Shown here piece after piece: positions 2,356 through 35,670 of a stretch of DNA of 37,477 nt (position 1 is the first letter of the stretch; the number at the start of each line of letters is the position of its first letter). Below the pieces are notes generated by a model. The model was not told where the DNA came from and searched no databases. It saw only the letters and a program-made list of their open reading frames with translations. The DNA comes from Moraxellaceae bacterium. Lineage in GTDB: Bacteria; Pseudomonadota; Gammaproteobacteria; Pseudomonadales; Moraxellaceae. Location of the stretch: contig CANBZV010000005.1 of the NCBI GenBank assembly GCA_947373945.1, positions 1 through 37,477 on the forward strand, in the 5' to 3' direction. Made by a program: the position numbers and the translations under genes.

Positions 2356-3516
2356 TTAAGCTGCTAATTTATCGGCGATCACTTTTGGTAATGGCACGAT
2401 CCGCGCAACTTTTGCACCTACAGACTCTTTAGCCACGTCGGCTTTAGGGCCGATTGGCAAGGCGTATTTGAAAATACGGCCTACCACTGTCGAGAACTGC
2501 TTGGTGAACGAGCCTGTGTTGTAGTTCTGGCCGTAACGGGCAGCAATTTCTTGCACCTTAACTGACAGCTCTTCATAACGTGCTCCAGGAATGTCTGGGA
2601 ACATATGGTGTTCAATCTGATGGCTCAGGTTGCCGGTCAAGATGTTAAAAATCTTGCCACCTTTCAGGTTACTGGAGCCGCGCAACTGACGTAAATACCA
2701 GCCACCACGCGTTTCGTTTTCCAAAATTTCAATCGGGAACGTCTCGGCATCTTCAGTAAAGTGACCACAGAAGATAATCGCGAAAGTCCAGAAGTTACGC
2801 ATCAGGTTGGCGACGAAGTTACCTGCCAACACTGGCAAAAACATCGGGCCAGCCAGTAACGGGAACAAGATATAATCCTTGCCGAACTGACGACGCATTT
2901 TCACCACCATCGGCTTCAGTTGTTGACGCACTTCAGCCCAAGTCTTTTCACCGGCAACTACTTTTTCCAACTCCAGCGCCTGCAACGCCAGTGTCCACTC
3001 AAAAGTCACCGCCAAAACAGTCGCTAGAATCGGGTTGGCAAGGAAACGTGGCTCCCACTTTTGTTCGGGGAACAAACGCAATACGCCGTATCCGATGTCG
3101 TGATCCATGCCGCGAACATTGGTATAAGTGTGATGCATAAAATTGTGGGTATGACGCCAGTTATCAGCAGTACACACAGTATCCCACTCGTAGGTGTTAC
3201 CACGCATCGAGGCATCGTTCATCCAGTCGTATTGACCGTGCATGACGTTATGGCCCAACTCCATGTTCTCAACAATTTTCGATACGCCGAGCAACGCAGT
3301 ACCAGCTAACCATGCTGGTGGCAACCAGCCCAAGAACATCAATGTCGAACGGCCAGCCACTTCACTGTAACGGACAAAGTTACGAATTTTGTAGATATAG
3401 TCGGCATCTTTTTCACCCAATGACGCCATTGTTTCTTTACGCAACGCATCTAATTCGTCGCCAAAGGCTTTGATTTCTTCAGTGCTTAAGTCACGGCTTT
3501 TGCTGGATGTAAACAT
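2356..3516 (-). CDS. Membrane fatty acid (acyl-CoA/acyl-lipid) desaturase, paralog of the adjacent gene
   Basis: His boxes GHNVMHGQYDW, HTHNFMHHTYTN, HQIEHHMFP; extensive similarity to the 1106-2263 product. Confidence 0.92.
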   Translation of the reverse strand: MFTSSKSRDLSTEEIKAFGDELDALRKETMASLGEKDADYIYKIRNFVRYSEVAGRSTLMFLGWLPPAWLAGTALLGVSKIVENMELGHNVMHGQYDWMNDASMRGNTYEWDTVCTADNWRHTHNFMHHTYTNVRGMDHDIGYGVLRLFPEQKWEPRFLANPILATVLAVTFEWTLALQALELEKVVAGEKTWAEVRQQLKPMVVKMRRQFGKDYILFPLLAGPMFLPVLAGNFVANLMRNFWTFAIIFCGHFTEDAETFPIEILENETRGGWYLRQLRGSSNLKGGKIFNILTGNLSHQIEHHMFPDIPGARYEELSVKVQEIAARYGQNYNTGSFTKQFSTVVGRIFKYALPIGPKADVAKESVGAKVARIVPLPKVIADKLAA

Positions 3517-3585
3517 GATCTTTATCTCGCTAAAATTTGCTTCGTTTCACTCCTCTCCCTAGGCATTAGGAAGAGGAAACAACAA

Positions 3586-4653
3586 TTAGATATCCAAGGT
3601 CACGGCGCTTAATGGCTCGCTGACACATATACGAATTTGGGTGTTTGGCTGGTCATCAATCGCGCCTGTTACTAGGTCACGCACCACACCCGACACTTTT
3701 GTGCAGCTACAGGTTTTGCACATACCGATACGGCAACCGTAAACGGGGCGTGCACCTGCGGCTTCAGCACTTTCCAAAATGCTCGCTTTGCTGTTGAGCA
3801 TCGTTTGTTGGCTGCGACGTAAGGTAATAGGCATGTCGTTAGCAGTCGCATCGCTGCTCAACGCCGCTGGGCCAAACAACTCTTGTTTCAATTGGGCGCT
3901 GATACCCTGCTCTGCCCATACTTTGCTGACTGCGCCCATCAAACCTTGTGGGCCGCAGATGTACGTCATACGCTCGGCATAATCAGCGTAAACATTCGCT
4001 AACTGCGTTGGGCTAAAACGACCGGTAATACCTGTTTCTGCCAAGGCATAATTCAGTTTCAACGATGGATGCTTAACCGCTAATTCCACCAACTCATCAG
4101 CAAATGCCAAATCTTTGTCGGTGTTGGCGTAGTACATCACCGCTACATCCAAAGTTGGTTGACGCTTTAACGCTTCAACCAAGATGCTGTAAATCGGGGT
4201 CACACCGCTACCACCAGCAATCAACAACATTTTGTTAGGTAATTGCGCGGGTAAGACAAAGTCGCCACCCACATCACCCAACTCAATGACATCACCGACA
4301 CTGAGGTTGTCATGCAACCAGTTCGATACTTTGCCGTTTGGCTGACGCTTTACTGCAATCTCAATGACGTTGTCAGTTGGTGCGCTGACCAAGCTGTAGC
4401 AACGCTCACGGAAGCTGCCGTCGATCATCACACGGAAGGAGACAAACTGACCGGCTTCAAAAGACTTCCAGTTTTTATTAGGCTGGAAAACAAAGCGTTT
4501 GATGTCTGGAGTTTCGTCATCAATAGCAACCACACGGGCAACAACGCGGCTGACTGTGAGCATTGGATTGACATGTGAAAACATGAAATCAAGCCAATCT
4601 TCTTTGACGAGGGTTCCGACAACACGATTGACGATAGGGTTAAGTGCTGACAT
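3586..4653 (-). CDS. Ferredoxin reductase (FAD/NAD-binding plus C-terminal 2Fe-2S ferredoxin domain), likely electron donor to the desaturases
   Basis: FAD motif RCYSLVSAP, NAD-binding GGSGVTPIYSIL, 2Fe-2S cysteines CRIGMCKTCSC; operon-like order with the desaturases. Confidence 0.9.
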   Translation of the reverse strand: MSALNPIVNRVVGTLVKEDWLDFMFSHVNPMLTVSRVVARVVAIDDETPDIKRFVFQPNKNWKSFEAGQFVSFRVMIDGSFRERCYSLVSAPTDNVIEIAVKRQPNGKVSNWLHDNLSVGDVIELGDVGGDFVLPAQLPNKMLLIAGGSGVTPIYSILVEALKRQPTLDVAVMYYANTDKDLAFADELVELAVKHPSLKLNYALAETGITGRFSPTQLANVYADYAERMTYICGPQGLMGAVSKVWAEQGISAQLKQELFGPAALSSDATANDMPITLRRSQQTMLNSKASILESAEAAGARPVYGCRIGMCKTCSCTKVSGVVRDLVTGAIDDQPNTQIRICVSEPLSAVTLDI

Positions 4654-4676
4654 GACTGAAACTCCAAACTAAACAT

Positions 4677-4694
4677 AGTGAACATCTGTGCACT
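4677..4694. promoter_or_regulatory. Candidate TetR (FabR/DesT-type) operator O1
   Basis: AGTGAACA-TC-TGTGCACT, imperfect palindrome (7/8 arm match), 24 bp upstream of the reductase start. Confidence 0.65.
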
Positions 4695-4717
4695 AAATAT
4701 AACGCATTTAAAAACTT

Positions 4718-4735
4718 AGTCAACACTTGTACACT
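4718..4735. promoter_or_regulatory. Candidate TetR operator O2
   Basis: AGTCAACA-CT-TGTACACT, same 18-bp architecture as O1. Confidence 0.6.
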
Positions 4736-4922
4736 TAATTTTTAAAAATTTGTCGTCACGCCCTACATACCTTAAAGCAAAAAACATATTAAATAGTTGA
4801 TTTTAATCAATAAAAAACAATTTTCACTACATTAAAACAGTGTACAAAAAAGAAAACAGTTGATGTAATTATCTAGATACAGGCTTTTTATTTGGCTAAT
4901 AGGCGCATTTTTTGTTAAAATT

Positions 4923-4940
4923 AGTGCACACCTGTAACGA
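4923..4940. promoter_or_regulatory. Candidate TetR operator O3 in front of the regulator
   Basis: AGTGCACA-CC-TGTAACGA; good left half, degenerate right half; 13 bp upstream of the proposed ATG at 4954. Confidence 0.5.
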
Positions 4941-4953
4941 CCGACAGAACACT

Positions 4954-5601
4954 ATGACGATTCGTGACGAACGTAAGCAACAAACACGACAAACCCTACT
5001 CGATGCTGCGCTCAAATTGATGAGTGACGGCCGCAGTTTTGTCAGTATTAGTTTGCGCGAAGTGACGCGTGAAGCGGGTGTCGTACCGACGGCGTTTTAT
5101 CGTCATTTTCGCGATATGGATGAACTGGGTTTAGCGCTGGTTGATGAGGTATGCCTAAACTTACGCCGTTTATTACGTGATGAGCGCTTGAAAGCAGGTG
5201 CTGGCCATATTGCCATTCAAAGCTCGGTGATGATGTTTTTGCTCTATGTCCGCCAAGAAGCGCGTTATTTTGACTTTTTGGCGCGCGAACGTTTGAGCGG
5301 CTCGGTAAAAATCCGTGAAGCAATTCAGCGTGAAATTAATCATTTAGCGACTGACTTAACCGTCGATTTTCGTTTATTCCCCGAAATGCAAAATCTACCC
5401 AGCGATGACCTAAATATGATTGCCAATTTAGTCGTCAATACCGCGATTAACTGGTGTGGTGAGATTTTGTCCCTACCGGCTGAACAAGTACGTCTGCAAT
5501 ATGAATTAAGCATGCGCGCCGTCAAACAACTGCGGCTGATTTTTGTCGGCGCGATGCACTGGCGCAGTGATAAAGGCGAGATTGCCAAAACTGCCTCATA
5601 G
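4954..5601 (+). CDS. TetR-family regulator, FabR/DesT-like, divergent from the desaturase operon
   Basis: N-terminal HTH: MTIRDERKQQTRQTLLDAALKLMSDGRSFVSISLREVTREAGVVPTAFYRHFRDMDELGLAL. The track's start at 4912 overlaps O3; ATG at 4954 matches family N-termini better. Confidence 0.88.
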   Translation: MTIRDERKQQTRQTLLDAALKLMSDGRSFVSISLREVTREAGVVPTAFYRHFRDMDELGLALVDEVCLNLRRLLRDERLKAGAGHIAIQSSVMMFLLYVRQEARYFDFLARERLSGSVKIREAIQREINHLATDLTVDFRLFPEMQNLPSDDLNMIANLVVNTAINWCGEILSLPAEQVRLQYELSMRAVKQLRLIFVGAMHWRSDKGEIAKTAS

Positions 5602-5812: not shown

Positions 5813-7135
5813 ATGCGCTTTCACTCTCTTTATTTAGCCGTTGCGCTGATGGCCGCCGCACCTGCTTTCGCAGATGATGTATTACAACAAGCCGACACAC
5901 TGATTCGTCAACAACAAGCAGCTCAAGCTTATGAGCTATTAGCACCATTAGAAGACGAACGCGCAGGCGATCCTCAATATGACTACTTACTTGGTGTCTC
6001 ACTATTAGAGACTGGCGACCCTAGTCGCGCTATCTTTGCCTTTGAGCGTTGCCTAGCCGTTGAACCTAAAAATGGCCCTTGTCGTGTACAAATGGCACGT
6101 ACGCATCTAGCCATTGGTGAAACACCTGATGCTCGCGCTGAATTACAAACCATTAAAGAATACAACCCACCTGCTGATGTGCAGGCATTGGTTTCCCAAT
6201 ATTTGGGCGTCATTGATAAAGTTGAAAAACAGCAAAAACGCCACATCACTGCCTACGCCCAAGCAGGGGTCGGCTATGACAGCAACATTAATAGCGCACC
6301 ATCCGATGCCAATAAAGCTGCCGCGATTTTTCCAACGGTGTTTGGTATTGCACCCACTAACCCAACTTCCGAAGAAGCAGGTTATGCCAGTGTACTGGCG
6401 GGAGCAGGTCTACAATACAAAATCACGCCAAGCTTGATTGGCTTGGCTGATATCAACTTGCAAAATCGTAGTTTCAACAATCACAATGAATCAAACTATC
6501 AAACAGCCGATGTCAGTGCAGGTGCCGCCTATCAGCACAGTCGCTCGCAAATTATTGGCAAACTGCAATATCAAAACATGTGGTTAGATAGCCAGTCGTA
6601 TCGTAACTCCTTCGGGGTTTTAGGGCAGTATCAATATAGTGTGTCTGATTTGGCGCAACTGGCTGCTTTCACGCAATTGAATCAATTACGTTACGATGGC
6701 GCGCTGTCTAATCGCGATGCCGATCGCATGACACTCGGTGTAGCTTACTCACAAGCGTATGACTCCAAAATGAGTCCCGTTTTCTACAGCAGCTTGTATG
6801 GCGGCAACGAAAACACTAAAGAATCGGCGTTCGACTGGCTAAGCCAAGACTTTTTAGGCTTACGAGTGGGCGGCTCACTACAACTGAGCGAGAAGCTAAA
6901 ACTCAATGGGGCTGCCAGCCTCGAAAAACGTGACTTTCAGGCTAGCTTCCCATTTCTGTTAGTCCCGAAAAAACGCGAAGACTCACAAGTTGATCTAAGT
7001 ATTGGCTTAGCATGGAAACTATCTCCCAAGTTAAGCCTACAACCCAATTATGCTTATACACGCACCAACTCCAATATCGATACCATTGACTCTACTCGTC
7101 ATATCGTGGGTGTTGATTTGCGTTTTGACCTCTAA
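5813..7135 (+). CDS. TPR + C-terminal outer-membrane beta-barrel protein (Slam / DUF560-like)
   Basis: Signal peptide MRFHSLYLAVALMAAAPAFA; TPR-like LLGVSLLETGDPSRAIFAFERCLAVEPKNGPCRVQMARTHLAIG; GVGYDSNIN motif followed by alternating beta-strand pattern to the C-terminus. Confidence 0.78.
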   Translation: MRFHSLYLAVALMAAAPAFADDVLQQADTLIRQQQAAQAYELLAPLEDERAGDPQYDYLLGVSLLETGDPSRAIFAFERCLAVEPKNGPCRVQMARTHLAIGETPDARAELQTIKEYNPPADVQALVSQYLGVIDKVEKQQKRHITAYAQAGVGYDSNINSAPSDANKAAAIFPTVFGIAPTNPTSEEAGYASVLAGAGLQYKITPSLIGLADINLQNRSFNNHNESNYQTADVSAGAAYQHSRSQIIGKLQYQNMWLDSQSYRNSFGVLGQYQYSVSDLAQLAAFTQLNQLRYDGALSNRDADRMTLGVAYSQAYDSKMSPVFYSSLYGGNENTKESAFDWLSQDFLGLRVGGSLQLSEKLKLNGAASLEKRDFQASFPFLLVPKKREDSQVDLSIGLAWKLSPKLSLQPNYAYTRTNSNIDTIDSTRHIVGVDLRFDL

Positions 7136-7152
7136 GCAAGGAGCACACAGAT

Positions 7153-9585
7153 ATGTTTACTACACAACCTATATTAAGCCCAAAAGGCTTATTGGCAGCA
7201 ATGGTTGCCACACTCTTGTCAGGGCAAGCACTTGCCGATACGGCTGGCCGCGTTAGTTTTATTTTTGGTGATGTGTCGGCCGTCAATACTATTGATGGTT
7301 CTCGTCGCACATTAAGCAAAGGTGATTTGGTTAATAGTGGCGAACGTTTGGAAACAGGCAAAGGCCGCCTGCAAATTCGCTTCACTGATGGCAGTTTTGT
7401 TTCGTTGCAACCAAATACCGTGTTTGGCTTAGACAATTACAGTTTTAGCAAAACCAAACCTGAAGAAGGCTCGTTGCTATTTAACTTTCTACGTGGTGGC
7501 ATGCGTACAGTAAGTGGGGCCATTGGCAAAATCAACCGTGCGAACTACAAGATCAAAACCCCCGTTGCAACCATTGGTATTCGTGGCACAGGTTACGCGG
7601 GTAGCATGAATAACGGCACGTTGGTGATTAGCGTTAGTAAAGGCATTGTTAATCTTACCAACGATTTTGGTAGCAGCAACGTACCCGCAGGTCAAACCTT
7701 CCAAACACAGCAAGGCAGAGCGCCTGAACCCGCACCGGAAGGCGTAAGCGCTCAAGCACGTGCAGACTCACCTGACAGTGGCGAACAGCAGGAAGATCGC
7801 CAAGAACGCCGCGACAACACACCGATTGGTGGGGGCTTGCAAATATCAACCACTGTGATTGCTGCGGTAGATGACGCGGCCACTGATGATACGGGGACCA
7901 TTATTACGCCTCCTGAATTAGGCGTGCTGTATCCAAACTCAACCATTACCATTGATAATAATGCGAACCCAACTACCTCACAGATATCACCGTTCTATGC
8001 CCTGACGCAGGCCAAAGTACGCACGAGCACTAACTTTTTATCAAGCTCGCAACTAGGAGCAACATTTAATAACACCACGGGCAGCGAGCGCAATGCCTTG
8101 ACTGCTGTAGATGAAGTCAATGCAAATGTTGACGGCACGTTATTCAAAAACAACGTTTTTACAGCAGGTTCGTTAAAAACTGCAAACGTCACAACACTTG
8201 GCGCATTATCTTTTGGTGAGTGGACCAATGGCACGGGAACATTTGACGGCCAAGCGTTAACATTGTCCAGCAGCCAATTTTTACCCTATATCGTTGGTCT
8301 GCAAGCAACTGATGTCAATGAAAGCCAAAAAGTCACTTATAGCCTAGATAAAGGTTCACTTGCTCGCAGTAACACGACTAATCTAACCGGCGTACTTGAT
8401 CATCTAAATCTGGATGTCAACTATGCTCAAGGCTTAATCGATGTCGATATGAAGGTGATTTTTAATGGCAGTGACTATATCGTCAATAAAACAGGCATTC
8501 ATCGCTTCCAAGTCGACAACTCGGGTGGTGCCGAACTTGACGGTTTACTGGCAACAAGCTCTACCACGGCTAATTGTGCCCAAGGGGGATGCCCAACGAC
8601 CTTGAGCATTTTCTTTGCTGGTTTAAATGTGGCCAACAAAGTATTTGGCACACAAGCGGGTGCCGCTTATATCATTAATTTAGCTGATGACTCTACCCTG
8701 TCTGGCGTTGGTGCACTGGCTGCATCCAACACCCAAGTCATTGCACAACGAGACCCTTTAAATCAAATTGACGGTAGCAAAGACACCATTTACTCGGCAA
8801 GCTTTGTCTCGAACTCCCCATCCTTCCCTCTTAAAAGTGAAGCCAGCCTGACAGGTAAATTTGATCCGACAACAGGTGAGCTACTAGTTGCCAGCCGCCC
8901 AACTGGAGAACTCTACGGTAGAGTGGATAATGAATTTTCTGCCACTACACTGAATGTTGGCTCGTTTAATAAAGTGCTATCGTGGGGTCAATGGCACAAT
9001 GGCGACTTAAACAACCCTAGTTTCCCTACTGGCGTTACGCTAAATCCTACCGATGATCTACACTATATTATCGGTCAAACCACTACTGCGACAGATATGG
9101 CTAATGCTGCTGGCAGCGTTCGTTACAGTTTCGTTGGCGGCACCAGTCAAGCCATACTTGATAAATTTGCCAGTTTCGTAGCTCAAACTGGCAGTCTTGA
9201 TGTTGACTTCACTAAAGCCACAGCTAATGTAAGCATGACGTTCACAGGCTTTGATTTAGGCACATTCAATAACCCTGCTGGCTTTAATACTCTGACAGCA
9301 ACGGGTGCAACCACTCTCACAGGTACATCTGCCCTGTCCTTTACAGGCATGACTGTCAACGCGACTGATACCAGAGTAAATCCAAACACCTTAACCTGTC
9401 CAACATGTACCGGCACAGCGATGGGCGGATTTGCGGGGACATTAACGGTCTCTGGTGCGCCACAAGCTGTGGGCTTGGGTTACCACATATCAGGAACGGC
9501 CATGAACGCTCAAACTACTACGCAAACAGCGTTTGATGTTGGCGGCACACAAGGCTTTGGCAACCCTGTAGACCCTACGCTCTAG
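7153..9585 (+). CDS. Exported FecR-domain protein with two C-terminal TbpB-like / repeated beta domains
   Basis: FecR-domain sequence GRVSFIFGDVSAVNTIDGSRRTLSKGDLVNSGERLETGKGRLQIRFTDGSFVSLQPNTVFGLDNY...KTPVATIGIRGTGY; signal peptide ending QALA/DTAG; RBS aaggag; 17 nt after the upstream gene. Confidence 0.82.
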   Translation: MFTTQPILSPKGLLAAMVATLLSGQALADTAGRVSFIFGDVSAVNTIDGSRRTLSKGDLVNSGERLETGKGRLQIRFTDGSFVSLQPNTVFGLDNYSFSKTKPEEGSLLFNFLRGGMRTVSGAIGKINRANYKIKTPVATIGIRGTGYAGSMNNGTLVISVSKGIVNLTNDFGSSNVPAGQTFQTQQGRAPEPAPEGVSAQARADSPDSGEQQEDRQERRDNTPIGGGLQISTTVIAAVDDAATDDTGTIITPPELGVLYPNSTITIDNNANPTTSQISPFYALTQAKVRTSTNFLSSSQLGATFNNTTGSERNALTAVDEVNANVDGTLFKNNVFTAGSLKTANVTTLGALSFGEWTNGTGTFDGQALTLSSSQFLPYIVGLQATDVNESQKVTYSLDKGSLARSNTTNLTGVLDHLNLDVNYAQGLIDVDMKVIFNGSDYIVNKTGIHRFQVDNSGGAELDGLLATSSTTANCAQGGCPTTLSIFFAGLNVANKVFGTQAGAAYIINLADDSTLSGVGALAASNTQVIAQRDPLNQIDGSKDTIYSASFVSNSPSFPLKSEASLTGKFDPTTGELLVASRPTGELYGRVDNEFSATTLNVGSFNKVLSWGQWHNGDLNNPSFPTGVTLNPTDDLHYIIGQTTTATDMANAAGSVRYSFVGGTSQAILDKFASFVAQTGSLDVDFTKATANVSMTFTGFDLGTFNNPAGFNTLTATGATTLTGTSALSFTGMTVNATDTRVNPNTLTCPTCTGTAMGGFAGTLTVSGAPQAVGLGYHISGTAMNAQTTTQTAFDVGGTQGFGNPVDPTL

Positions 9586-9599
9586 GCAATTCTCACACT

Positions 9600-9627
9600 A
9601 AGCGCGGACTAGCTCCGCGCTTTTTTA
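9600..9627 (+). terminator. Intrinsic terminator after the FecR-domain gene
   Basis: aagcgcgga ctagc tccgcgctt followed by T-run. Confidence 0.9.
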
Positions 9628-30102: not shown

Positions 30103-31710
30103 ATGAACACATTGATTAAAACTATTTTATTGCTAACTTCCTTTTTTACCCTGTCATTTGCCCACGCTGAGATTTATAAATGGGTGGATGCCAATGGTAA
30201 AACACACTTCAGTGACAAAGACCCTCGCTTTAGTTCCGCCAAACCAATTGAAGCCTCTAATCCAATTATTGAGCCAAAGCAACCGACATCAAAAGTCAGG
30301 CTAAAAGATATCAAATTTGAAGACGCAGCCCTAGCTTCTTGCATCAGGGATGCCGCAGGAAAAAATGGTTATGATGCCGTCTTTGCTAATGAAATTAAGG
30401 ACTTAACCTGTAATAATATTGGCTCACTCACAGGCATTGAAAACCTCAGCTCACTCTGGCAACTCATACTTGTCAAAACGGAAATTAAGGATTTAACCCC
30501 AGTTTCGACACTTAAAAATTTGCGCATGTTGATAATTGAAGGCTCACAGATAGATGATGTTTCCCCTCTAAGCAATCTCAGCAACCTCCCTCAACTAGTA
30601 CTGACAAAAGCACATATTGAAAGTGTTGAACCGCTGCGTAATTTGTCTGGATTAATTCACTTGGATCTCAGTAACAATCGTATAAAGTCAGTCGTTGCTT
30701 TAGAAAAGCAGACGCAGCTTATAACACTTGGACTGGAAGGCAACCCTCTCAACTGCACTCAAGTGGTAGATTTATATGTTAAGTTGATTGCAGGCCAAGA
30801 AAATACTAAACCAATATACACATCAATTTATCCTGCATGTGAACAGGAATTATCAGCGCGCAAGCCTGATATCTTAGCTGCGGAAAAATCTATTCAAGAG
30901 AAGCTCACACATCAGCCCAATATTACAAGTCAACAAAAAGAGCAAAGCAACACTGATCGAAGCGTGCAAGAGTTAGTATCTAAGCGTGATACTAAAGGCT
31001 TATCCAGTTGGCTAGCGAAAAATCAAAATGCGTTTACTGACTTCAAAATAAATGGGATGCCTTTATTTAATTTAGCAGTCCAGTACTATCTCAATCAGCC
31101 GAATAATGACGATGACTTTCAGTTTCTTGAATGGTTGCTTAAACACGGAGCTAAAACTAACAGCAAGGATACGAACGAAAGAATAGCCCTTACCTATTTG
31201 TACGACTCTGTCCAACTTAATACAAAAAACAAACCACTGTTAAAGTTTTTGTTGAAACATGGTACCGATATTAACTATGCGCCACCGAATCGTCCCACTG
31301 TTCTCGTTGTCGCTGCTGCTGAAGGTAAACTAGACTGGGTCAAAGAGTTGATTGCGTTGGGAGCCAATATTAATGGCCAAGATGGGTTCGGACGCACGGC
31401 TCTGATGATGTCCTATGGCAATCAATTTTATCAAGTTTTTGACTATCTACTCAATGCAGGTGCGAATATTCAGCTGCGCGATCAGAATGGGGCAGCATTA
31501 ATTCATTTCGTTGCGTGGCAACTGAATAGTAGGCCAAATGACGAACGGAGCGGAAAAGCCAAACACTATGCGGTGATGTTGCTGGAAAGGAAATTGAAAT
31601 TTAATTTGAATAATAAGTATGACCGCGAGGCATACCAAAAGTGTGTAAGGTATTTACCTATATACTTTCAACATATTAAGCCTGAGCAGTTAATAAAAAG
31701 AGAAACTTAG
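30103..31710 (+). CDS. Exported DUF4124 - leucine-rich repeat - ankyrin repeat protein
   Basis: Signal peptide; EIYKWVDANGKTHFSDKDPRF (DUF4124); LRR units LTPVSTLKNLRMLIIEGSQIDDVSPLSNLSNL...LIHLDLSNNRIKSV; ankyrin units LLKFLLKHGTDINYAPPNRPTVLVVAAAEGKLDWVKELIALGANINGQDGFGRTALMMSYG. Confidence 0.82.
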   Translation: MNTLIKTILLLTSFFTLSFAHAEIYKWVDANGKTHFSDKDPRFSSAKPIEASNPIIEPKQPTSKVRLKDIKFEDAALASCIRDAAGKNGYDAVFANEIKDLTCNNIGSLTGIENLSSLWQLILVKTEIKDLTPVSTLKNLRMLIIEGSQIDDVSPLSNLSNLPQLVLTKAHIESVEPLRNLSGLIHLDLSNNRIKSVVALEKQTQLITLGLEGNPLNCTQVVDLYVKLIAGQENTKPIYTSIYPACEQELSARKPDILAAEKSIQEKLTHQPNITSQQKEQSNTDRSVQELVSKRDTKGLSSWLAKNQNAFTDFKINGMPLFNLAVQYYLNQPNNDDDFQFLEWLLKHGAKTNSKDTNERIALTYLYDSVQLNTKNKPLLKFLLKHGTDINYAPPNRPTVLVVAAAEGKLDWVKELIALGANINGQDGFGRTALMMSYGNQFYQVFDYLLNAGANIQLRDQNGAALIHFVAWQLNSRPNDERSGKAKHYAVMLLERKLKFNLNNKYDREAYQKCVRYLPIYFQHIKPEQLIKRET

Positions 31711-32007: not shown

Positions 32008-35000
32008 ATGTATACGTCAGCCTCTAGCAGCAAGAATTCGGTTATGGTCAATATTGGACTGGCAATAGCCTATTTTTTCGCTGGCACTATCGGCCTGTTG
32101 CTGGCCACCCCACCGGGCTATGCCACCTCGGTCTGGCCCGCTGCAGGTATCGCGTTGGGCGCCGTGTTGTTGTATGGCTGGCGTTGCTTGCTGGGTGTTG
32201 TGTTGGGGTCGCTGTGCATTAACATCCTAATTACCGTGCGCGCATCCGGTCAGGGCATATTGGATATCGGCTGGATCGTGCCGCTGCTGATTGCACTAGG
32301 CGCTGGTGCTCAGGCATGGGCTGGGCAAATTCTTATCCGCCGTTATGTCGGCCCGACTCTGCATCTGGATGACCCGGAAGCCATTCTCAAAGTGCTTGCC
32401 TTAGGCGGGTTTTTAGCAACATTGGTCAATGCGACTTGGAGTATCACCCTTCTATACTCCATTCAGGCAATTCATGCTGACCGTATTGTCCAGAACTGGG
32501 TAACGTGGTGGATAGGCGACAGCATTGGCGTTCTCGTCTTCACCCCGCTGGTACTGGTATGGGGCATTCCCAAACCTTGGTTCGACCGTACACGCGCGCT
32601 GATGGTGACGGCTGTTTTGGTTAGCGCCTTCGGCCTGACTGTTCTAGGGTTTCTTCTGGTGGTCAAACTGGAGGCACAGGACAGGGTTGGTCGTTTTCAG
32701 GCCAACGGTGCGCAGGCTGTCACCCAAATCGAGCGCCGTTTTGCCGAATATGAGGCGTTTGCCCGAGATTGCCATGGCTTGTTCAACGCCAGTACGCAAG
32801 TAACACGGCTGGAGTTTCATCGTTTCACGCACCACTGGCTAGAGCGGCATCCCGAAGTTCAAGCGGTAGAATGGGCACCCATTGTCCGGCATCAGGATCG
32901 AGCAACGATGGAGAATGCGGCTTCGCTGGAAATCGGCGGCTCCCCGTTTGAATTCATCAGCCGCCCAGAACAGGGTCAAACGCACCAGCGATCGCCAGAT
33001 AGGAATGATTATGCCCCCCTTCTCTATGTCGAGCCGTTGGCAGCCAATCGGATAGTGCTTGGCTATGATGTTGCAGGTGAGCCATTACGTCGCCAGCTGC
33101 TGGAAATGGCGGCTCAGGAGGGTGAGCCCGTTGCTTCAGCTCCGCTCCAGTTGGCGCAGGATACCGAGCATCATCCGGCCATTGTGATCTACACCCCCGT
33201 TTTTCGGAACCCAGAACAGAAGTCTGGTCAATGGCAGGACTTGGCGGGATTCATTGTCATGGCACTAAAAACAGATCAGGTTATCGGTCAAATGGCACCG
33301 CAGTTTGCCGACGACGGTCTGATGTTGGCAGTAATCGACAAGGCGACTGGCAAGCCGATTTTTGGGGAAACACCGCCGATACGCCAGCGCAATGTCGCCA
33401 TACAAATGGGATTACATTTTCAGGATCAGGGCATTATCGGTAAGCGCCAATGGCGCTTTGATGTTTGGCCTACCGAAACCCGACTTGCCAGCTATGAGTC
33501 ATGGTTGACATGGACGGTTCTGGTCACAGGCTTGATTGGCACCAGTCTAGCGGTCAGTTTCAGCCTGATAAATAGCGGTAGAAGATACTATCTGGAGCGG
33601 GCGGTCACCAGTCGTACCCACGAATTGCAAGAGCGCAATGCCGAGTTGGAAGTCGCCCGCATCGAGGCGGATCAGGCCAATGCCTCCAAAGGGGTATTTT
33701 TGGCCAATATGAGCCATGAAATCCGCACCCCGATGAATGCCATTCTGGGGATGGTGCACCTGCTGACACAAACGGAGCTCACACCAAGACAGCGCGATTA
33801 CGCCAGTAAAACCCAGTCGGCGGCTAAATCATTACTTGGCATCCTAAACGACATTTTGGATTTCTCCAAAGTAGAAGCAGGCAAGATGGAGCTGGATCTA
33901 CACCCGTTTAGAATTGACAAACTGATGCGCGACTTGTCCGTCATCTTGTCAGCGAATACAGGCGATAGAAATGTTGAAGTATTGCTGGATGTTGATGCCG
34001 AATTGCCAGTGAGTGTGATGGGTGACTCGCTACGGCTACAGCAAGTATTGATTAATCTGGCGGGCAACGCGATCAAATTCACCCAGAATGGTGAAGTCGT
34101 GGTAACGCTGACACTGGAAAAGCTGGGCGATAACAACGTCACTATTGGCTTTGCCGTGCGCGATTCGGGCATTGGTATTCCCGCCGACCAGTTAGGGCAT
34201 ATTTTTGAAGGTTTTACCCAAGCCGAAGCATCGACATCACGACGTTTTGGCGGTACAGGTCTTGGCCTTGGTATTAGCAAACGTCTGGTCGCGCTCATGG
34301 GTGGCGACTTGCAGGTGGAGAGCACGCTCGGTGTGGGCAGTCGTTTCTACTTCGCGATTTCCTGCCCTCGTATCCATGACGAACCCTCTTTGCACGACCA
34401 ATATGTCGCCTCTGCCATACCTTTGGCTCTGACATGCGCACAACCCTTAAAAACACTGGTGGTTGATGACAACGCATCCGCAAGAACGGTATTAGGGCAT
34501 ATTATTCAGTCCTTGGGCTGGCAGGTTGATGTCGTGTCAAGCGGACAAGAGGCGCTCGCTTTACTGGAACATCCCGAAAATAGCGGCTTTCCTTATGATG
34601 TCGTGTTTATGGACTGGAAAATGCCCGACATGGATGGCTGGCAAACCACGTGCCATATTCACCAGCGCTATCAGGGTCAGAAACTGCCCATCATCATTAT
34701 GGTTACCGCGCAAGATCGGGAACGTCTGGCACAACGGATGCTGACCGAAGCGGTGGCGTTGGACGGCTTTCTGGTTAAACCCGTCACCGCATCCATGTTG
34801 TTTGATGCCGTAGTTGATGCTAATGCGGGAGCAATGGGGGTAGCGGCCAAGACCTTCGCATTACCTTCGTCCACTCGCTTGGCGGGCTTACGGCTGCTGG
34901 TGGTGGAAGATAATCACATGAACCAGCAAATCGCCCGTGAATTACTGGGCAACGAAGGCGCAGAGGTCGTAGTGGCAAGCAATGGTAGACTGGGTGTGGA

Positions 35001-35670
35001 AGCTGCATTAACCACTCAGCCGCCCTTTGATGTCATTCTGATGGATATACAAATGCCTGATATGGATGGCTATACCGCGACAGAGCAAATACGCCGTCAT
35101 GAGCACATGAAAACCGTGCCCATTATCGCCATGACCGCCAATGCCATGGCTTCGGACAAAGCCGCCTGTCTAGCGGCAGGGATGAACAACCATATTGGCA
35201 AACCGATTGATGTGACTATTTTGGTTAACACCATCCTGCATTATTGCGCGCCAGAAACGAATCGCTCCCCGCAAGAGATTACGTTAGCACCCACTGCGGT
35301 AGAGACACCCTCATCGGGCAAAATCAATATTGAGCTCGCGCTCAAGCGTTTGGGTGGCAAAAAGAAGTTGCTTATCAATCTTGCCGAGCGTTTTATTGCC
35401 GATACCGCAACCACCGCAGCAGACTTGCAACAGCAACTGCGGCAAGGCAACTATGATGATGTCGCCCATAAGCTACATTCCTTAAAAGGTTTGGCGGGGA
35501 CTGTTGGCGCGACTGAGCTTGCCACGCTGCTGGCGGATATGGAGAGTCAATTAGAGAGCTTAAACTCCCCTGCGGCGATTGACAGCGCAATCAACACACT
35601 GGCAACAGAGTTATATGCCAGCAGAGCAGCATTGGCCACAATAGCTCAGCAGTTAAGGGCGGCTGGCTAA
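32008..35670 (+). CDS. Hybrid sensor histidine kinase (MASE1 - CHASE - HisKA - HATPase_c - REC - REC - HPt)
   Basis: MASE1-like ATPPGYATSVWPAAGIALGAVLL; CHASE-like HPEVQAVEWAPIV; H-box FLANMSHEIRTPMNAILGM; RFGGTGLGLGISKRLV; two REC domains (VFMDWKMPDMDG, ILMDIQMPDMDG); HPt KLHSLKGLAGTVGA. Confidence 0.93.
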   Translation: MYTSASSSKNSVMVNIGLAIAYFFAGTIGLLLATPPGYATSVWPAAGIALGAVLLYGWRCLLGVVLGSLCINILITVRASGQGILDIGWIVPLLIALGAGAQAWAGQILIRRYVGPTLHLDDPEAILKVLALGGFLATLVNATWSITLLYSIQAIHADRIVQNWVTWWIGDSIGVLVFTPLVLVWGIPKPWFDRTRALMVTAVLVSAFGLTVLGFLLVVKLEAQDRVGRFQANGAQAVTQIERRFAEYEAFARDCHGLFNASTQVTRLEFHRFTHHWLERHPEVQAVEWAPIVRHQDRATMENAASLEIGGSPFEFISRPEQGQTHQRSPDRNDYAPLLYVEPLAANRIVLGYDVAGEPLRRQLLEMAAQEGEPVASAPLQLAQDTEHHPAIVIYTPVFRNPEQKSGQWQDLAGFIVMALKTDQVIGQMAPQFADDGLMLAVIDKATGKPIFGETPPIRQRNVAIQMGLHFQDQGIIGKRQWRFDVWPTETRLASYESWLTWTVLVTGLIGTSLAVSFSLINSGRRYYLERAVTSRTHELQERNAELEVARIEADQANASKGVFLANMSHEIRTPMNAILGMVHLLTQTELTPRQRDYASKTQSAAKSLLGILNDILDFSKVEAGKMELDLHPFRIDKLMRDLSVILSANTGDRNVEVLLDVDAELPVSVMGDSLRLQQVLINLAGNAIKFTQNGEVVVTLTLEKLGDNNVTIGFAVRDSGIGIPADQLGHIFEGFTQAEASTSRRFGGTGLGLGISKRLVALMGGDLQVESTLGVGSRFYFAISCPRIHDEPSLHDQYVASAIPLALTCAQPLKTLVVDDNASARTVLGHIIQSLGWQVDVVSSGQEALALLEHPENSGFPYDVVFMDWKMPDMDGWQTTCHIHQRYQGQKLPIIIMVTAQDRERLAQRMLTEAVALDGFLVKPVTASMLFDAVVDANAGAMGVAAKTFALPSSTRLAGLRLLVVEDNHMNQQIARELLGNEGAEVVVASNGRLGVEAALTTQPPFDVILMDIQMPDMDGYTATEQIRRHEHMKTVPIIAMTANAMASDKAACLAAGMNNHIGKPIDVTILVNTILHYCAPETNRSPQEITLAPTAVETPSSGKINIELALKRLGGKKKLLINLAERFIADTATTAADLQQQLRQGNYDDVAHKLHSLKGLAGTVGATELATLLADMESQLESLNSPAAIDSAINTLATELYASRAALATIAQQLRAAG

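Follow-up and report, generated by a model that had tools for sequence, protein, structure and literature searches.

A FecR-domain protein beside a Slam-type outer-membrane barrel: a probable type 11 translocator-cargo pair of environmental bacteria

What does a FecR-domain protein do when its gene directly follows that of a TPR-bearing outer-membrane barrel? The question is raised by a two-gene locus in a 37,477-nucleotide (nt) stretch of a freshwater Moraxellaceae bacterium (assembly GCA_947373945.1, contig CANBZV010000005.1, positions 1 to 37,477; hereafter the window), whose genome is 75% complete and falls in the Agitococcus group. A preliminary description of the locus had read the first gene as a Slam/DUF560-like barrel protein with TPRs and the motif GVGYDSNIN, located 17 nt before an 810-residue FecR-domain protein taken to be its non-lipidated cargo, with a terminator closing the pair, and had proposed a Pfam search, structure predictions and a survey of co-occurrence as checks. 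The two open reading frames (ORFs) are indeed co-directional and 17 nt apart from stop to ATG, and the motif, the TPRs and the terminator were all found. Our analyses make it quite probable that the genes encode a dedicated translocator-cargo pair of the Slam (surface lipoprotein assembly modifier) or type 11 secretion system (T11SS) kind, in which the predicted C-terminal lobes of the FecR protein would cross the outer membrane via, or together with, a 14-strand barrel.

By sequence and model, the upstream outer-membrane protein (OMP) is a member of the SlipAM/DUF560 (type 11 secretion) family. It matches SlipAM in Pfam (PF04575, formerly DUF560; cut-off, 22 bits) with 44.5 bits over profile positions 6 to 274 of 288, and its N-terminal part matches TPR_19 with 59.8 bits. 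An alignment of 48 translocator family members, which also served as AlphaFold2 (AF2) input for the OMP, has SlipAM in 47 of them and TPR_Slam in 28 at E≤0.1 (best, 1.4e-4). The resulting model, with a mean confidence (pLDDT) of 91.2, consists of helices followed by exactly 14 strands, the number in a Slam barrel. Since a fold search of the PDB finds barrels in general, the evidence for this assignment comes from the profile matches and the number of strands.

In the downstream protein, here called the partner, Pfam annotates the FecR domain alone (PF04773, residues 65 to 166, 44.6 bits against a cut-off of 24), and single-sequence searches of the PDB with either protein gave TPR noise or no match. 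Its kinship emerged solely via a profile of its C-terminal modules and a fold search. The AF2 model places FecR strands directly after the signal peptide, then a low-confidence linker and two C-terminal lobes, each a small beta segment plus a barrel module. This module of about 170 residues, present in two tandem copies (typical pattern, WGRW...HYVxGxPT...Y.L.G.T.PT...L..DF...C..GC...GFFAGxxAxxAGLxY...GAAAF), was found in 78 of 84 full-length partners, with one to four copies each, and reaches the C terminus in the great majority. A profile built from 45 modules and run against 177,635 PDB sequences matched two TbpB entries, 5kkx (1.2e-4) and 4qq1 (1e-3), ahead of a next match at 0.62. In addition, 4 of the 45 modules matched TbpB_B_D in Pfam (best, 1.7e-4), and 13 of 50 partners matched the NCBIfam model NF041636 (slam_lipo, “Slam-dependent surface lipoprotein”) over most of its length, with a best value of 3.3e-9 and scores below the cut-off where shown.

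The strongest single result is the Foldseek search of the PDB with the partner model, because it used neither the OMP nor the gene order. TbpB occupies ranks 1 to 14 (E 8.8e-10 to 3.5e-5), followed by HphA from two species, fHbp, HpuA, LbpB, and NHBA, with FecR-type domains matching the N-terminal part. These results support a relationship, in sequence and in predicted fold, of the C-terminal lobes to TbpB, HphA, and fHbp, which are known Slam/T11SS cargo. As the partner itself matches neither TbpB_B_D nor NF041636, and its homologues match them weakly or below the cut-off where shown, we class the partner as a divergent variant that, judged by its fold, probably works like a T11SS cargo. Its signal peptide, reading ...SGQALA/DTAG, lacks an obvious lipobox, as first described. 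The lipobox pattern matched only two of 93 FecR-type ORFs of related loci, both times within the hydrophobic segment and with an AxA-type site after it, and the partners examined look non-lipidated throughout.

Searched with the barrel sequence only, about 85,000 genomes gave 198 relatives, from which the best 80 loci were retained; this set, from Moraxellaceae and Betaproteobacteria, comprises the best barrel matches and is not a random sample, with many loci from related Betaproteobacteria. In all 80 a FecR gene adjoins the barrel gene, 79 times directly downstream on the same strand. A separate Pfam SlipAM scan of 184 genomes of the class found a FecR neighbor at 14 of 15 places over the cut-off, excluding the host genome and a genome with classical high-scoring Slams; in the latter, none of four SlipAM places has one. 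With four FecR-domain genes in the entire host genome, adjacency by chance is negligible. Moreover, among FecR proteins of the same genomes, the module is present in 10 of 10 with a barrel neighbor versus 0 of 6 without. The mirror-tree correlation of the pair (r=0.85) is given little weight, because it is mixed with shared species history.

The pair is copied as a unit. A second one in the host genome (L006:4119-7754) has a barrel 52% and a partner 43% identical to those of the window, and in two Agitococcus relatives the whole pair is duplicated in tandem (L038:6567-15188 and L042:3-5783), the members being most similar pairwise and the number of cargo lobes differing between copies. Among named genomes, the nearest pair is that of Agitococcus lubricus. 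The locus also occurs in records labeled Pedobacter, Klebsiella pneumoniae, and Bordetella parapertussis (L069, L103, L111, and L121), all metagenome bins whose names look doubtful and which may be misnamed or contaminated. A separate FecR lineage conserved in relatives (L007:6692-9115, L044, L046, L047, and L048) has neither a barrel neighbor nor TbpB-like modules.

How might such a pair work? The FecR partner would be exported by Sec and its signal peptide cleaved by signal peptidase I (SPI), after which it would be kept unfolded in the periplasm. The TPR/SlipAM protein may then recognize the C-terminal TbpB-like barrel modules, and the C-terminal lobes would traverse the outer membrane through, or helped by, the 14-strand barrel and fold outside, with the FecR domain forming the N-terminal end of the cargo, as an “effector” or an anchor. 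Barrel family membership, domain architecture, the fold relation between module and cargo, absence of a lipobox, and near-invariant linkage were computed here, while C-terminal recognition, the chaperone-held unfolded state, and passage through the barrel are taken from work on Slam1/TbpB, where Skp holds the unfolded cargo, a C-terminal signal is proposed to be recognized, and Slam is the translocon (PMC9090332). Soluble, non-lipidated cargoes are known from T11SS subcluster 1B (PMC8406197).

Several results weigh against a Slam-type pair. BBP2_2 slightly outscores SlipAM on the OMP of the window, and Foldseek cannot tell this protein from other outer-membrane barrels in the PDB, matching hundreds of them, BcsC first and PelB also listed, with no Slam structure among the 50 matches listed. 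The partner of the window is matched by neither TbpB_B_D nor NF041636, and the matches of its homologues are weak or below curated cut-offs. Its AF2 model is of moderate quality (pLDDT 81; predicted template-modeling score, 0.49), and the TM-scores of single lobes, about 0.4 to 0.5, mark a distant relation. The module is undetectable in the remaining 6 of the 84 partners and likewise in the most distant pairs (L050, L053, and L054). The OMP matches would also suit a polysaccharide or small-molecule exporter with a TPR-barrel like that of BcsC, PelB, or EpsL, and a FecR protein as its periplasmic accessory. We consider this improbable, since the likeness of TPR plus barrel is generic, the EpsL and BcsC scores (39.6 bits against 275 and 18.9 against 858) fall below the curated thresholds, and both the near-universal SlipAM match and the 14 modeled strands speak for Slam. 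Furthermore, the invariant partner has Slam-cargo lobes in place of enzymatic or polysaccharide-binding domains, and the neighbors scanned included no polysaccharide synthase.

The FecR domain itself invites a different explanation, in which the partner would act as a sensor, or in an anti-sigma-like manner, under control through the OMP, as in FecA/FecR, and its FecR fold does match the PupR signaling domain and a putative anti-sigma factor. However, the signal peptide is of the cleavable type and the model contains no other transmembrane-type helix, so that no cytoplasmic part would be left to bind a sigma factor. An anti-sigma role was rejected on this topology. The OMP, moreover, has no TonB-dependent receptor domains in Pfam, and neither sigma factors nor receptors were found among the neighbors scanned, which together leave signaling of this type highly improbable.

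The preliminary description had the FecR protein as cargo, and the missing lipobox, the TbpB-like lobes, and the gene linkage uphold this for the lobes; the FecR domain may itself stay behind in the periplasm. We tentatively consider a refinement in which the FecR/retention-like N terminus remains periplasmic, either bound to the TPRs or lodged as a plug in the barrel, and only the TbpB-like lobes are outside, so that the translocator would double as the anchor, the role of the lipid in classical Slam cargo. Consistent with this, no lipid anchor is seen family-wide, and the start of the FecR domain is similar to a LapA-type retention module: NF033682, the model for that module, matches 49 of 50 partners at E<0.01 (best, 8.4e-11). 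A profile of the N-terminal part has 5ix9, an RTX adhesin's surface-anchoring domain, as its top PDB match (1.1e-3), and in the fold search this domain superposes across 63 columns (1.3 Å). Modules of this type remain periplasmic and keep adhesins in place in the secretion pore (PMC13090378). The signal that Slam recognizes is proposed to lie at the C terminus of its cargo (PMC9090332), so that the N terminus could trail. In several genomes of one bacterial family (G041, G247, and, by coverage, probably G254, G255, and G257), a FecR domain is fused before the TPR-barrel itself, a position in which it must be periplasmic, and a second FecR protein is encoded nearby; one such fusion gene is L054:6269-8314 (the same gene as L170).

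Several observations limit this refinement. The NF033682 matches lie below the 50-bit cut-off where shown (26.9 bits for the partner of the window and 40.3 for the best homologue) and span only part of the FecR domain, whose fold may share ancestry with both, and non-lipidated cargo of the haemophilin type is freely secreted. LapG-style regulated release is not supported, as the host genome, at its 75% completeness, contains no PF06035, and LapG-type [TAP]AAG motifs occur in only 5 of 84 partners. The retention likeness and the FecR-barrel fusions speak for, but do not prove, a role of the FecR domain in periplasmic docking or anchoring.

A third gene accompanies the pair in many species. Of the 63 loci that extend far enough, 40 encode a TPR-bearing GT41 glycosyltransferase (PF13844) downstream of the partner on the same strand, 22 of them within about 110 nt or overlapping. 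Agitococcus has two GT41 genes elsewhere in the genome and none beside the pair. In Alcaligenaceae, a CHASE2-guanylate cyclase gene (L071:8814-11102) takes the place after the pair that GT41 occupies in others. The GT41 family includes O-GlcNAc transferases and HMW1C. The latter, known as the “third partner” in HMW1 two-partner secretion, carries out cytoplasmic glycosylation of the adhesin (PMC3983070), and by this analogy it is a natural guess that the co-encoded GT41 could glycosylate the cargo. Joining these features, one may picture a lipid-free, translocon-anchored T11SS branch, with a periplasmic FecR end, one to four TbpB-like lobes outside, and, in many species, prior glycosylation by GT41, but as a complete scheme this is doubtful.

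Features of the translocator-partner locus (window positions, unless a locus is named) and examples of the associated glycosyltransferase gene
Feature	Position	Strand	Basis
TPR + SlipAM (DUF560) 14-strand beta-barrel OMP, proposed translocator, 440 aa	5813..7135	+	ORF, Pfam, AF2 model
Translocator signal peptide, residues 1-20, ...APAFA/DD	5813..5872	+	Read directly from sequence, no predictor
Periplasmic TPR helices, residues 22-142	5876..6238	+	AF2 model, pLDDT mostly 85-97; TPR_19
14-strand barrel, residues 143-439	6239..7129	+	DSSP of AF2 model; SlipAM 150-426
AAGGAG ribosome-binding-like site of partner gene	7138..7143	+	Sequence
FecR - TbpB-like partner, proposed cargo, 810 aa	7153..9585	+	ORF, Pfam, module hidden Markov model (HMM), AF2, Foldseek
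Sec/SPI-type signal peptide, no lipobox, residues 1-28	7153..7236	+	Sequence; AxA-type cleavage sites across family
FecR beta domain, residues 30-193	7240..7731	+	PF04773; AF2 strands; PDB matches 4m0n, 6ovk
Part resembling LapA/MpIBP retention module, residues 32-96	7246..7440	+	NF033682 4.6e-6 (below cut-off); 49/50 homologues; 5ix9
Lobe 1: beta “handle-like” segment 264-349 + TbpB-like barrel module 352-529	7942..8739	+	Module HMM 352-519, E 8e-35; AF2; Foldseek
Lobe 2: beta “handle-like” segment 547-605 + TbpB-like barrel module 609-803	8791..9561	+	Module HMM 608-789, E 1e-33; AF2; Foldseek
Rho-independent terminator closing pair	9600..9622	+	9 pairs, TTTTATTT tail
GT41 gene, examples (37 further loci)	L062:10363-12489, L098:8662-10815, L136:8628-10751		

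The terminator is a strong one with six G-C pairs, the most among the terminators found in the region. Upstream of the pair, at 2356 to 5601 of the window, lie genes whose products look like a fatty-acid desaturase, a ferredoxin-type reductase, and a TetR regulator (Pfam check for TetR only), and in A. lubricus (L037) the pair is preceded by genes of comparable size and orientation. The second host pair stands beside a two-partner secretion locus (L006:3-4061) consisting of a YDG/MBG-repeat protein and a ShlB-type transporter, and neighbors similar in size to this locus accompany a pair in A. lubricus (L041). Farther along the window are a hybrid histidine kinase with a MASE1-CHASE sensor (32008 to 35670) and an adjoining protein with DUF4124, leucine-rich, and ankyrin repeats (30103 to 31710).

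Where does this pair stand among known systems? With Slam1/TbpB of T11SS subcluster 1A (PMC9090332, PMC8406197), it shares the SlipAM barrel with N-terminal TPRs, the adjacent genes, and a cargo whose two TbpB-like lobes each seem to combine a handle-like segment with a barrel. The cargo here, however, is predicted to be non-lipidated, with an extra FecR domain before the lobes, which number between 1 and 4; beside the pair no TonB-dependent receptor was found, and the bacteria are environmental rather than mucosal. Haemophilin/HphA-HsmA and HrpC-HrpB of subcluster 1B likewise combine an SPI signal peptide and a C-terminal TbpB-like barrel with an adjacent DUF560 OMP, and HphA is a Foldseek match of the partner, but cargo of the HphA/HrpC type is small, single-barreled, and released, whereas here an N-terminal FecR/retention-like domain is added. 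The N-terminal domain resembles the retention module of the RTX adhesins LapA and MpIBP in sequence and model; in contrast to these adhesins, the likely exporter is a SlipAM barrel, the lobes are TbpB-like, and no LapG homologue was found in the incomplete host genome. The three-gene logic of OMP, cargo, and GT41 in 40 of 63 loci recalls the HMW1A/B/C two-partner system (PMC3983070), although the OMP and cargo are unrelated to those of HMW1, the GT41 here carries TPRs like O-GlcNAc transferases, and it is not beside the Agitococcus pair. Finally, FecR anti-sigma regulators share the PF04773 domain, but the partner appears to have no sigma-binding cytoplasmic part or transmembrane helix after its signal peptide, and no sigma factor or receptor was seen alongside.

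Seven T11SS translocators have been verified, all of cluster 1 and animal-associated (PMC12282271), while the nine other clusters, mainly from water and soil bacteria, have no characterized protein (PMC8406197). FecR does not appear in the main text of these two genome-scale surveys, though their supplementary tables may differ, and we found no paper in the open-access literature linking FecR to type XI secretion, to the surface lipoprotein assembly modifier, or to retention module/LapA. Most likely an exporter and its dedicated cargo, the pair recurs in dozens of environmental bacteria, with a kind of cargo that is not in the main text of either survey. It offers a concrete and widely conserved cargo candidate for environmental T11SS translocators and links FecR, usually read as a signaling domain, to probable surface display. 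Its presence in the cultivable A. lubricus makes it testable whether Slam-type exporters display non-lipidated proteins and whether the exporter may itself be the anchor. If a translocon-anchored branch exists, it would supply a cargo for environmental T11SS proteins whose cargo is unknown, and the exporter would be the anchor.

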